Assembly (NCBI RefSeq): GCF_000179555.1
Contig: NZ_AECZ01000020.1
Coordinates: forward strand, 1-64,000
Origin: Solidesulfovibrio fructosivorans JJ]
Lineage (GTDB): Bacteria; Desulfobacterota; Desulfovibrionia; Desulfovibrionales; Desulfovibrionaceae
DNA: 64,000 nt
Direction: 5' to 3'
A model generated the notes under the pieces. That model had not been told where the DNA came from. It worked only from the letters and a program-made list of their open reading frames with translations, and ran no database searches. This document shows, in pieces, positions 8,910 to 54,860 of the stretch. The stretch's first letter is position 1. Each line of letters begins with the position of its first letter. The position numbers and the translations under genes were made by a program.

Positions 8910-11900
8910 TTACGCCTTTTTCACGTTGACCATGAAGGCCTTGGTTTCGGGGATGCCCGTATTGGGATCGCCGACGGACGGGCACAGGATATTGGCCGAA
9001 TCGCCGCCTTCCTTGGGCCAGGTCCAGCCGTAGTGCCAGGGCACGCCCACCTGGTGGATGGTATGCCCCATGACGGTAAAGGGCTGGAGACGTTCGGTGA
9101 CGATGGCCTTGGCCCAAAGCGAGCCGCGGGTGCTTTCGAGGATCACCTTGTCGCCGTTGCCGATGCCGCGCATCTTGGCCAGTTGCGGGCTCATTTCGCA
9201 AAACATCTGCGGTTCGGCCTCGAGCAGCCAGGGCGAGTTGCGGGTCATGACGCCGGTCTGCCAGTGCTCGGTGACCCGGTAGGTCGAGCACACGAAGGGA
9301 TAGCGCGGATCGCAGACGGCATGGACTTCAGTCGGGCCGGTGAAGGTCAGCGCCGTGGGGTTGTTGAGCTGCTTGGAGAAGGGATGCTCGCCAACCGGAC
9401 ACTCCAAGGGCTCGTAGTATTCGGGCAGGGGGCCGTCGTTTCTCCCGGGGCCGAAGATCTGTCCCATGCCTTCGCTCTCCATGATGAAGGGGTACTTGCC
9501 CTTCTTGGAATCGGCCATGGGCGGCCAGCCGCCGTCGGGCACGTCGCCCACCCACTTGCCGTCCTTCCACTCGATGACCGGCTTTTGCGGCTGCCAGGGC
9601 TTGCCCTGGGGGTCCACCGAAGCGCGGTTGTAGAGGATGCGCCGGTTGACCGGCCAGGCCCAGGTCCAGCCCGGGTACAGCCCGATTTTGGCCTGCATGG
9701 GCGTCTGGGTCTTGTCGCGGCGGGCGGCCATGTTCTTATCCGTGTAGGAACCGGAGTAAATCCAGTTGCCGGAACAGGTGGAGCCGTCGGTCTGGAGCAT
9801 GGCGAAGCTCGGCACGGGGTCGCCGGGCTTGAAGGTCTTGTCCTTGCCGCCGACCTTGAGCGTCTTCTCCTTCAGAAACACGCCGTTGATGATCTTGGCC
9901 ACCTTGTGGCTGTCGAAGGCATGGTTCGTGGCGAAGTCCCACTTGAGGTTTTTGATCGGATCGGGGAACGCCCCGCCTTCCTTGGCATAGAGCGCCCGGA
10001 TCTTCTCGAAGAGCTCGAAGATGATGTCGCCGTCCGGCTTGGTGTCGCCAAGGGGCTTCTGGGCGGCGTAACGCCACTGCATCCAGCGGCCGGAGTTGGA
10101 GATGGAGCCTTCCTTTTCGAAAGCCACGGCGCAGGGCAGGAAGAAGACCTCGGTCTTGACCTTCTTCGGGTCCATGCCCGGGCCCTTCCAGAAGGAGCCG
10201 GTCTCGGTCTCGAAGATGTTGACCGTGACCATCCAGTCGAGCTTGGCCATGGCCTCGCGGGTCTTGTTGGCGTTGGCCGTGCTCGCGGCCGGGTTCTGGC
10301 CCCAGGCGAAAAAGCCCTTGAAGGCGCCCTTGTGCATGGCGTCGAACATGGACAGCCAGGAGTAGTTCTTGCCCGGCTCGAGCTTGGGCAGATAACTGTA
10401 GCCGGTCTCCAGGTTCTGGTCCGGGTAGAGCGACTTCACAAAGCTCGCCATGTACTTGGGCCTGTTCCCCCACCAGTTGGCGCTCTGCGGGTCCTTGGTC
10501 ATGGGGGTGGTTTTCTCGCCGTAGACCTGCAAGCTCTCCATGGTGGCGTTCGGCGTCGGCAGATAGCCCGGCAGGATGTGGTAGAGCAGCGCATGGTCGG
10601 TGGAGCCCTGGACGTTGGCCTCGCCGCGAAGCGCGTTGATGCCGCCGCCGGCCACGCCCATGTTGCCCAAAAGGAGCTGGACGATGGACATGGCCCGGAT
10701 GTTCTGCACGCCGACCGTATGCTGGGTCTGGCCCATGGCGTAGAGCATGGTGCCGGATTTCTCCGGGACGCCTGTGGCGGCAAAGGTCTGGTAGACGAGC
10801 TGCAAATCCGCTTCGGGCGTGCCGCTGATCTCCGAGACGGTCTTCAGCGTATAGCGGTCATAGTGCTTGCGCAGGATCTGGAACACGCAACGGGGATCGC
10901 GCAAAGTCGGGTCTTTTTTGATCCGCCCGTCCACATCCTTGGCAAAGGCCCAGGCCGACTTGTCATAGGCGCGCTTGACCGGGTCGTAGCCCGAGAAAAG
11001 CCCGTCCTTGAAGTCGAACTTGTCGCCGAGGATGAACGAGGCGTTGGTGTAATTGACGACGTAATCCTTGAAATACAGATTGTTGGCCAGAATATAGCGG
11101 ATAAATCCGCCGAAAAAGGCGATGTCGGACCCCGAGCGCAGCCGGGTGAACACATCCGCGTGGGCCGAGGTGCGCGTGTAGCGCGGGTCCACGTGAATGA
11201 TCTTGGCGCCTTTGTCCTGGGCCCGAAGCGCCCACTTGAACGAAATGGGATGGTTCTCGGCGGCGTTGCTGCCGATAATGAGAATGCAATCCGAATTGGC
11301 GATGTCGATCCAGTGGTTCGTCATCGCCCCGCGTCCGAACGACTCTGCCAGAGCCGCTACAGTGGCGCTGTGTCAGATACGGGCCTGATGCTCGATGTAG
11401 GTAAATCCCAGGGCACGGAGCATGCCCTGGTATATCCAGCATTCCTCGTTGTCCATGGCCGCCGAGCCGACCGAGGCCAGCGTTTCCAGACGGTTGACGA
11501 CGCGGCCCTTGGCGTCCTTGACGGTAAAGGACGCGTCGCGCGCTTCCTTGACCTTGCGGGCGATGCGATCCAGGGCGAAATCCCAGCTTTTCTCTTCCCA
11601 ATTCTCGCTGTACGGGGCGCGGTAGAGCACCTTGGTGATGCGCCGGTCGTTTTTGCCGAGCTGGTAGTGGGACGCGCCCTTGGGGCAAAGCGAACCCTCG
11701 CTGATCGGATGGTCCGGGTCGCCCTCGATATTGACCACCCTGCCCTCGCCGTTCTTGTCGGTGCTGGCGATAAGCCCGCAGCCGACCGAACAGTAGCAGC
11801 ATACCGAAGTGGTCTGCTTGGTGAATTTGAGCTTGTCGGCCTGGGCCAGCGCCGCGGCCTTAGCCTGGCCGAGGTCAAAGCCGAGACCGCCAAAGGCCGC

Positions 11901-11954
11901 CACGGCCGAGGTCGCGCCCGCGATCTTGAGGAACTCGCGCCGGTTCCATTCCAT
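8910..11954 (-). CDS. fdhA: formate dehydrogenase alpha subunit, selenocysteine-containing
   Basis: The catalytic subunit (1014 residues, matching FdnG-type enzymes) oxidises formate in the periplasm at a W/Mo-bis-pyranopterin centre. The ATG at 11954 follows AAGGAGA and opens a Tat signal (NRREFLK). A [4Fe-4S] motif (CCYCSVGCG) follows. The in-frame UGA at 11373-11375 falls in the context ARI-U-HSATVAALAESFGRGAM, exactly where the family has its active-site Sec/Cys, giving Sec194. A hairpin just downstream fits a bacterial SECIS. Reading stops at this UGA unless it is decoded as selenocysteine, so standard gene calling would split the gene in two. The C-terminal part carries the molybdopterin dinucleotide-binding domain. 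Confidence 0.95.
11340..11356 (-). promoter_or_regulatory. SECIS-like hairpin in fdhA
   Basis: On the transcript, CGGCUCU pairs with AGAGUCG (seven pairs including one G-U) around a GGC loop, starting 17 bases after the UGA. The location fits a bacterial SelB-binding element. The stem was found by eye; its energy was not calculated. Confidence 0.7.
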
Positions 11955-52936: not shown

Positions 52937-53176
52937 TCATTCCTTGTTCAAGGGAATGAGCACGAATTCGCCGCACAGGTCGTCGGCCAAGGTCTCCGGC
53001 CAGACGGCCACGTAGGTTTTTCCCCGAGCCTGTTCCACCGGCACGCTGGCGGGCGCGGGGGCGTGGCGTTTGCAATAGCCCCAATCGCCGGAAGTCATCT
53101 CCTCGGGGGGACAATAGCGGTGTTCGGGGGGAATGGGCCCTTTCCAATACCGGCACATCCGGCACTTCTGCTTCAT
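52937..53176 (-). CDS. small Cys-rich protein
   Basis: This 79-residue protein starts MKQKCRMCRYWKG and has six Cys in total, five of them in the first half (CRMCRYW, YCPPEE, WGYCKRH) and one near the end (DLCGEF). A zinc or Fe-S site is possible. No family is recognised. The start at 53176 overlaps the stop of the upstream cyclotransferase gene (ATGA), so the two are coupled. Confidence 0.7.
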   Translation of the reverse strand: MKQKCRMCRYWKGPIPPEHRYCPPEEMTSGDWGYCKRHAPAPASVPVEQARGKTYVAVWPETLADDLCGEFVLIPLNKE

Positions 53177-53979
53177 GGTTGCCGCCTGGTCCCGCCGGGG
53201 TGTCCGAAAGGCAGCCCCGGGACCTTGATTTCGAATATTTTCGGCCAATGCTTACCCGTCACCCAGATCCGCCCCGTGGCCGGATCGCAGGCTATGCCAT
53301 TGAGGACGTCATCGGGGCTGGTCTTGGTTACGCCCGCGGCCAGGGCGGCGCAATCCACCCAGGCCAGCACCCTGCCCGAGGCCGGGTCGATCACCGCGAT
53401 GCGCGTATCGCCCCAGACATTGGCCCACACCATGCCGCCGATGGATTCCAACTCGTTTAAGCGGACCACGGGTTCGCCAGCATCGGTCACGGACACGGTC
53501 CGACGCAAGGCCATGGTTTCGGGGGCGTAAAAAAAGAGCTTGTCCGACCCGTCGCTGACGACCAGGTCGTGGCCGAGCGTGCAAGCCCCCCAGCCTTCAG
53601 TGGCCAGCGGCAACTCGCGGACGGGCGCGAGATCGGACAGCCGGGACACGAACACCCGCCCTTCCCGCCAAGTCAGCTGATACAGGTGATCGCCGGCAAG
53701 AGCCAACCCCTCGCCGAAATAGGGCTTGGCCAAGGCGCGGCTGGACAGCACCCTTCCCGTGGCCGGGTCGAGACGCCGCAGGGAGGACTGGCCGTAGAGC
53801 CCGGTGCTTTCGTAAAGCGCGCCGCCGTGGAAAAGCAGTCCCTGGGTGAAGGCGTCCGGATCGTGGGGAATGGCCGCCACGACCTGGACGGGGAAACTCG
53901 GCGCGGCCGCCAGGGCCGGGGCGGAAGAAAGCAGTGCCCATGCAAGCAGGAGCGCCGCCCGGATCGCGACCGGCGGCAT
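53173..53979 (-). CDS. secreted glutaminyl-peptide cyclotransferase
   Basis: This 268-residue protein has an export signal (AIRAALLLAWALLSSAPALA) and a beta-propeller of the bacterial/plant glutamine cyclotransferase type: PHDPDAFTQGLLFHGGALYESTGLYGQSSLR, TWREGRVF, SDGSDKLFF, LNELESI, and VLNGIA. The enzyme makes N-terminal pyroglutamate on exported proteins. The start at 53979 gives a proper signal peptide; a longer form from 54045 is less likely. Confidence 0.88.
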   Translation of the reverse strand: MPPVAIRAALLLAWALLSSAPALAAAPSFPVQVVAAIPHDPDAFTQGLLFHGGALYESTGLYGQSSLRRLDPATGRVLSSRALAKPYFGEGLALAGDHLYQLTWREGRVFVSRLSDLAPVRELPLATEGWGACTLGHDLVVSDGSDKLFFYAPETMALRRTVSVTDAGEPVVRLNELESIGGMVWANVWGDTRIAVIDPASGRVLAWVDCAALAAGVTKTSPDDVLNGIACDPATGRIWVTGKHWPKIFEIKVPGLPFGHPGGTRRQP

Positions 53980-54127
53980 GGCCGGCCGGCGTAGCGGCGA
54001 AAACAAGACGAAGCTTGCCGCAATATTACAGTCTTTTCTTGTCATACAAGGAGGTTAGCATTCCCAGGACAGGCTGGCAAGAACACGGGGCTTTACACGG
54101 CGGGAATTTCCGGCCATAGTTCACTCC

Positions 54128-54307
54128 ATGAACGATACCCTGCTTTTCGTCGGCATCATGGTTGCATGGTTTCTGGTCGTCCGTTTCATTTTCCCCAAGC
54201 TCGGCATACGGGGCTGAGGCATCGACACGGGGTGCGGTTCGCGCCCCAAGCCCCCGCACAAGCCGGAAGATCCGGACAGCATGCCGCCGGATCGCCCTAA
54301 AAACTGA
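54128..54307 (+). CDS. candidate small membrane selenoprotein (UGA at residue 30)
   Basis: An ATG at 54128 opens 29 codons for a membrane peptide (NDTLLFVGIMVAWFLVVRFIFP, then KLGIRG), then UGA at 54215-54217. The frame continues 29 more codons (GIDTGCGSRPKPPH..., Cys seven residues after the UGA) to a stop at 54305. GC at codon positions stays high at position 3 (about 79 percent) beyond the UGA, and a SECIS-like hairpin follows. The genome uses selenocysteine in fdhA. No clear ribosome site is seen. If the UGA is a stop, this is a 29-residue peptide or nothing. It overlaps the opposing barrel-protein gene by 11 bases. Confidence 0.5.
54229..54247 (+). promoter_or_regulatory. SECIS-like hairpin after UGA at 54215
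   Basis: GGGGUGCG pairs with CGCGCCCC (eight pairs, one U-G) around the loop GUU. The stem starts 12 bases after the UGA. The GGU at the loop lies 19-21 bases after the UGA, the same distance as the GGU of the E. coli fdhF SECIS. The element was found by inspection only. Confidence 0.5.
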
Positions 54308-54860
54308 TCTTGAGGCCGACGTTGCCGCCCAGGCTGTCGAGCCCGCTGTCCGAAAAAGACCCCATGTGCTGGAAACGTCCGGCCGCCTTGAGGCTCACGT
54401 TCTTGCCGAGCGCCACGGACGCGCCCAGATCGGCCTGGCCCATGCCGCTTCCGGTCTCGCCGTTGTAGGGCAGCTTCTTGTCGGAAAACACGCCGCCGCC
54501 GCCCGCGCCCACAAACAGCGTGCCCTTGTGCGTGCGCAGGAAGTTCCAGCGGGCCATGCCCGCCACGCTCACGGCATTGGTGGTCTCGCTTTGGGTGGCC
54601 TCTCCGAGCACGGTCCGGGTCTTTTTCTGCTGGTCCACGGCATAGCCCAGACCCTCGGCCTCCACAGCCACCCCGTCCATGACGTAGTAGCCGGCCGCGC
54701 CGCCGTAGGTGCCGATCGTGTTGACGTTGGGATTGGTGGTGCCGTAGACGCCGCCCCGGGGTTCGAGATAGGTGGTGCCCTTGGTGTACTCCTGGGCAGG
54801 GACGGCCCCGGCCCCAAGCAGCAGCACACAGGCGGCAAGGATCATGACGCGACGCTTCAT
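54297..54860 (-). CDS. small outer-membrane beta-barrel protein (paralogue)
   Basis: This 187-residue protein has a signal peptide (ACVLLLGAGAVPAQ) and beta-barrel strands ending in KISF. It is clearly related to the protein at 19135-19722 (GVYGTTNPNVN, TYGGAAGYYV, VAVEAEGLGY, DQQKK). The function is unknown. It follows the YbjQ-like gene on the same strand after 40 bases and may share its transcript. Confidence 0.82.
   Translation of the reverse strand: MKRRVMILAACVLLLGAGAVPAQEYTKGTTYLEPRGGVYGTTNPNVNTIGTYGGAAGYYVMDGVAVEAEGLGYAVDQQKKTRTVLGEATQSETTNAVSVAGMARWNFLRTHKGTLFVGAGGGGVFSDKKLPYNGETGSGMGQADLGASVALGKNVSLKAAGRFQHMGSFSDSGLDSLGGNVGLKISF

Follow-up and report, generated by a model that had tools for sequence, protein, structure and literature searches.

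A family of small one-helix membrane proteins predicted to contain selenocysteine in Solidesulfovibrio and other bacteria

Analysis of a 64,000-nucleotide stretch of the Solidesulfovibrio fructosivorans genome (the window) led us to what is, to judge from the conservation of its sequences, very probably a family of one-helix membrane proteins that contain selenocysteine (Sec), with a member encoded in the window itself. The gene lies on the forward strand at 54128-54307, from an ATG at 54128-54130 to a terminating TGA at 54305-54307, and its frame, translated through a UGA at codon 30 (54215-54217), gives the 59-residue product MNDTLLFVGIMVAWFLVVRFIFPKLGIRG-U-GIDTGCGSRPKPPHKPEDPDSMPPDRPKN. A preliminary description of this DNA had drawn the same 59-codon frame and read its internal UGA as Sec (U30), a reading that comparison with the relatives strongly supports. 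It had placed a cysteine seven residues past U, which is an error of count, as the cysteine is the sixth residue after it. The codon of this residue, Cys36 (54233-54235), which we propose as the partner of U30, is invariant in 37 of 37 members used in our profile. The high GC content at third codon positions past the UGA is real (0.79, versus 0.66 and 0.59 at the first and second positions), as is the 11-nt overlap of the tail with the convergent frame at 54297-54860.

With the product as the query and Sec entered as Cys, we searched 149 family genomes and recovered clear homologues that have a TGA in frame at the matching site, one Cys form (L028), and weaker matches that included FeoB-like and chance ones; a tblastn search of plasmids with the product gave zero matches. 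Each of the nine members from the genus has exactly one in-frame TGA, at an identical position. A profile built from 37 members and run on 395 genomes of the phylum at an E value of 0.01 found matches, which were read letter by letter in part, in 175 genomes (44%) and in 117 of the 246 genera. We also scanned 84,980 species with a degenerate DNA pattern comprising the end of the helix and an LP[KR]xG motif, with TGA, TGC, or TGT permitted at the Sec codon. This pattern retrieved at least 119 stretches, 80 of them listed with titles; a hydrophobic stretch precedes the motif in all 80, and the codon is TGA in 78 and TGC in 2, both of the latter from Verrucomicrobiota. The Desulfobacterota titles among the matches listed include Geobacter, Syntrophobacteraceae, Desulfacinum, and Solidesulfovibrio, and the others include KSB1, Planctomycetota (the named strain Aquisphaera insulae), Spirochaetes, Verrucomicrobiota, Armatimonadetes, Chloroflexi, Acidobacteria, and Geothermincola. 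Records titled as at least eight phyla besides Desulfobacterota contain the family, most titled records being metagenome bins that are possibly misassigned. In one locus from a Pirellulales bin (L122:1145-1660), the frame past the Sec codon reaches 172 residues, a possible extended or fused form.

We gathered 194 distinct members by the motif upstream of the Sec codon, requiring U or C at that codon, so that other residues there would be missed. Within this set, the codon is UGA in 191 and TGC in 3 (L028, L140, and L190), and even the outer members have a UGA at the same site with conserved residues past it. The 13 in-frame codons past the UGA are free of stops in 190 of the 191 UGA members, versus 152 and 107 in the other two frames, and the sole exception (L205) is cut by the end of its locus. 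Likewise, a Cys codon occurs within 12 codons past the UGA in 181 of the 191, versus 75 and 29 in the other frames, with four residues between Sec and Cys in 121 members, five in 36, and six in 12. The tail lacks a Cys in six members, the truncated L205 included, and the Sec-Cys pair is therefore not universal. Sec itself is residue 29, 30, or 31 in 182 of the 191, and the members are mostly 45 to 65 residues long. The two Cys forms from Verrucomicrobiota (L140 and L190) read TCMSCCC; their genomes have tRNA-Sec, indicating that the Cys form there is not tied to the loss of Sec decoding. Homologues with Sec or Cys aligned at residue 30, which the preliminary description had set down as the thing to look for, accordingly exist and are conserved downstream of it. 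Within the genus, the median dN/dS is 0.64 past the UGA and 0.23 ahead of it; the tail past the first codons after the UGA evolves freely, and this freedom, together with the overlap of a hairpin with the codons, is why the ratio past the UGA is not low.

This hairpin, at 54229-54247 on the forward strand, is of the SECIS type, with eight pairs (GGGGUGCG/CGCGCCCC) and a GUU loop at 54237-54239, as had been described from the letters alone. It begins 12 nt past the UGA, and its loop lies 20 to 22 nt past it. By energy it is ordinary (z of -0.71 against dinucleotide shuffles and p of 0.135 against synonymous recodings), and the decision therefore had to rest on the relatives. Folding of the 48 nt past the UGA in 189 sequences placed the center of the first loop 18 to 28 nt past the UGA in 146 of them, as against 945 of 2,688 for all loops in shuffles, and this first loop opens with a G in 116 of the 189. 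Hairpin energy falls below that of GC3-matched synonymous recodings with a mean z of -1.27 (n = 189; p < 0.05 for 52). In 121 sequences picked by their Cys spacing alone, the helix formed by positions 17-23 and 27-33 pairs in 66% of cells with a covariation of 0.438, and sliding the partner strand by 1 to 3 positions as a control gives at most 0.291. The hairpin of the family is conserved and covarying.

The machinery required for decoding UGA as Sec is present in the window's genome: the tRNA-Sec there scores 84.8 bits, and SelB scores 359.9 bits, above the cut-off. As a positive control, the window encodes a formate dehydrogenase alpha subunit (fdhA; 8916-11945, reverse strand) with one in-frame TGA, and a second fdhA with one in-frame TGA is found elsewhere in the same genome (contig C50, 13863-16865, reverse strand). 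That this genome decodes UGA as Sec, which the preliminary description had deduced from fdhA, is thus borne out on all three counts. Across the phylum, SelB was detected in 353 of 395 genomes. The 10 family-positive genomes without a detectable selB all have tRNA-Sec, and the 31 with neither selB nor the family comprise 11 with tRNA-Sec and 20 with none; of the 42 selB-less genomes behind these counts, 20 were listed and 21 obtained by elimination, and 1 was left out of the tRNA-Sec count. The family accordingly occurs in 175 of 374 Sec-decoding genomes versus 0 of 20 without Sec decoding (Fisher p of 7e-6, with shared ancestry ignored). The remaining 199 of the 374 give no match, indicating that the family is not essential to Sec users. 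Among 30 genomes from the wider scan by DNA pattern, picked by title mostly from other phyla (L167 being a Geobacter relative), tRNA-Sec was found at an E value of 1e-10 in 24, namely, 22 of 28 with Sec forms and both of those with Cys forms; in the other 6 of the 28, genomes of unstated completeness, it was not detected at this threshold.

Taken with the above, the family presents UGA/Cys exchange, coding conservation past the UGA, a bSECIS hairpin, and accompanying SelB and tRNA-Sec, the criteria for a bacterial selenoprotein. The reverse reading, under which the UGA is a true stop closing a conserved 29-residue membrane peptide and the hairpin is a terminator or other RNA element, could draw on the unexceptional energy of the window hairpin and on the absence of a Shine-Dalgarno match. 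It is nevertheless very improbable, given the Cys codons at the UGA site in three members, the conserved Cys and open frame downstream, a hairpin whose position and covariation fit a SECIS, and the absence of the family from the 20 genomes without Sec decoding; further, no terminator-like site was found within 53950-54420. A plain stop followed by a noncoding hairpin was rejected on the conservation past the UGA.

The preliminary description was also right that there is no clear ribosome site: a Shine-Dalgarno match is absent upstream of the window gene, as it is in all nine genus members, and is present in 24 of 28 other family members from outside the genus. We found a promoter-like site of the sigma-70 type, TTTACA-N17-CATAGT, on the forward strand at 54092-54120 (9 of 12 matches; 1 found versus a shuffle mean of 0.1). 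Its -10 box ends 7 nt upstream of the ATG, which would give a leaderless mRNA, and the missing ribosome site may be explicable by such a transcript. The nearest relative (L003) has hexamers and spacing identical to those in the window; in the seven remaining members of the genus, the match to the promoter is weaker, reaching at best 6 to 8 of 12. Of the genes on either side, the convergent one (54297-54860, reverse strand) encodes a beta-barrel-like protein (OMP_b-brl; 28.2 bits, just below the Pfam cut-off of 28.7) and the divergent one (53173-54045, reverse strand) a protein with the Pfam glutamine cyclotransferase domain (PF05096). Neither is thought to be part of the Sec-protein system, and the neighbors of the window gene point to no function.

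Scans of 37 and 86 members against Pfam and NCBIfam gave no believable match, the best E value being 0.0014, below the cut-off. This value belongs to Arabinose_trans, which appeared in 41 of the 86 members and was disbelieved on account of its score and its coverage of the helix only in the one member shown; a profile search of the PDB gave one arabinosyltransferase match (E value of 0.48), judged to be due to chance. There was likewise no match to the NCBIfam or Pfam models listed for the 119 selenoprotein families and subfamilies in Table 1 of a 2026 review (PMC13188914), families represented only by cd or PTHR models lying outside this test. The available portions of that inventory describe none of its 119 families as a one-helix peptide with the motif of the present family. 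Three hypothetical proteins, DG, DW, and DF, were reported by deep-Sep as Desulfobacterota selenoproteins without known domains (PMC12013277); their NCBIfam models (NF049953, NF041197, and NF049942, respectively; PMC13188914) are not among the matches of the members that we scanned. The deep-Sep method may itself miss selenoproteins that lack Cys homologues (PMC12013277). A search of the literature on small and new membrane selenoproteins found no description of the family among the papers covered, and it is likely to be new both to the literature and to the family libraries. With SelB/bSECIS-dependent selenoproteins such as FdhA, its members share the in-frame UGA, the Sec machinery, the rarity of Cys forms, and a hairpin with a G in a small loop about 20 to 26 nt downstream; they differ from them in being mostly 45- to 65-residue single-span membrane peptides.

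AlphaFold2 predicts a single membrane helix for codons 2 to 24 (54131-54199; mean pLDDT of 91 for residues 1 to 20), in agreement with the one-helix peptide of the preliminary description, and gives low confidence past the helix, where the tail is predicted to be disordered (mean pLDDT of 69.7 and pTM of 0.35 for the whole chain). The net charge is acidic over the first five residues and about +2 over residues 18 to 29, and the tail is mixed; from this distribution and the positive-inside rule, we infer that the C-terminal half is cytoplasmic. In the model that we favor, the gene would be expressed, translation would probably begin on a leaderless message, SelB, tRNA-Sec, and the downstream hairpin would decode the UGA of codon 30 as Sec, and the peptide would be inserted into the inner membrane. 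Sec30 would then sit at the membrane surface just past the conserved LP[KR]xG turn and probably form a reversible selenenylsulfide with Cys36, the whole probably serving as a selenol site, tethered to the membrane, for redox chemistry (or for a soft metal). In many relatives, an FmdB-type zinc-ribbon protein, apparently with a Sec at its own C terminus, is a likely partner. The simplest chemistry would be a Sec-Cys bond that forms reversibly, as the Sec follows a proline-glycine turn and usually has a Cys five to seven residues on; we give the redox mechanism taken alone about an even chance.

Two other roles for a genuine Sec protein merit consideration. The eukaryotic selenoproteins SELENOK and SELENOS cross the membrane once and carry their Sec in a short, disordered tail on the cytosolic side. 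They differ from the present family in length, SECIS type, and membrane and are comparable to it in layout. This similarity in layout, the largely variable gene context, and a structure of just one helix and a short tail, charged and disordered, which is smaller than a classical enzyme would need, would suit a structural or regulatory function of this design, for example, within a membrane complex as an adaptor or small subunit. We consider such a role less likely than not, as Sec is kept almost without exception, usually with a Cys some residues away, which favors chemistry at that site. Still less probable is a tether for metal or selenium, functionally related to the FeoB-associated Cys-rich proteins (PF12669), in which Sec and Cys would hold a soft metal ion on the cytoplasmic side of the membrane. 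In both families, a helix at the N terminus leads into positive residues and a tail that bears thiols; ours differs in having Sec instead of a CGCGC cluster. The window's genome encodes a one-helix Cys-rich FeoB_associated protein (G000:C8:152217-152318; PF12669 E value of 1.1e-8). The similar layout of this protein and the weak reach of the product search to such proteins (E values of about 0.005 to 0.1) would fit a tether of this kind. Set against it are the single conserved Cys besides Sec, the lack of a recurrent metal-transport family among the best 25 of the 103 families in 59 same-strand neighbors, and the lack of a PF12669 match in any member scanned, on which ground we also rejected membership of the family in FeoB_associated.

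Returning to a membrane-tethered selenol, we sought associations in the gene neighborhoods, in which the upstream and downstream genes mostly differ between loci. ArsR, C_GCAxxG_C_C, and YgaP-like_TM occur in 4 of 59 each (59 of 70 same-strand neighbors), as raw counts uncorrected for background. Genes for CcdA/DsbD_TM, a TlpA-like thioredoxin, and glyoxalase recur largely in Geobacter-type loci (e.g., L127, L141, L186, and L218), mostly on the opposite strand; as candidate partners they were set aside, their recurrence being treated as synteny. Of the 194 loci, 33 have a gene for an FmdB zinc-ribbon protein no more than 1.5 kb away, upstream or downstream and on the same strand in all 33, with some possibly missed in the many loci with short flanks. 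A rough chance expectation, taking two FmdB genes per 3,500 and two neighbors, is about 0.2, the FmdB-bearing loci being related to each other. Among the best 30 FmdB matches in the phylum, 23 have the membrane gene alongside by motif, and the pairing occurs in Desulfobacterota, KSB1, Chloroflexi, and other groups. The FmdB profile found no match at an E value of 1e-14 in the genome to which the window belongs.

Among the neighboring FmdB genes (e.g., L118:2665-2868, L121:4240-4455, and L070:1248-1463), all 32 that are complete have TGA as the first stop; the codon after it is GGN or GCN in 28, and a further stop follows after one to three codons in 31. The best 30 matches in the phylum behave in the same way, with TGA as the first stop in 30 and Ala or Gly after it in 26. 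The 42 nt past the TGA fold with a mean z of -1.23 (n = 32); 31 of 36 loops lie 16 to 27 nt downstream, versus 50% in shuffles, and G is the first loop base in 24 of these 31. The tails of other FmdB paralogues are rich in Cys (e.g., CSTCG). These patterns in the sequences suggest that the neighboring FmdB form probably carries a Sec within its final two to four residues. Its identity as an FmdB zinc-ribbon protein is given by TIGR02605, matched by 30 of 30 scanned (of the 32 complete), and by PF09723, matched by one representative. An FmdB-family selenoprotein, a putative regulatory protein from a 2008 analysis of GOS data, has been published with a CxxU motif (PMC2398784), and the 2026 review lists UxxU for this family (PMC13188914). 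The neighbor described here belongs to the same zinc-ribbon family and differs in keeping both CxxC motifs and in having a C-terminal UGA, mostly as F[ST]-U-[A/G], with a stop within one to three codons. We tentatively suggest, at somewhat under an even chance, that two undescribed selenoproteins, the membrane peptide and a soluble FmdB with Sec near its C terminus, form a conserved selenol relay, the membrane part of which would rank with the most widely distributed selenoprotein families in anaerobic bacteria and would have been overlooked on account of its tiny size and the near absence of Cys forms.

The family, present in 44% of the sampled genomes of the phylum and in several other phyla, is apparently missing from the libraries and the inventory with which we compared it. 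Its genes would be annotated as 29-codon fragments or skipped, and with its Cys forms so rare, it would tend to escape methods that depend on Cys/Sec pairs. Through the link to FmdB, a zinc-ribbon family that is poorly understood gains a possible role in redox chemistry, and the membrane family itself permits a direct test of the role of a membrane-tethered selenol in anaerobes.
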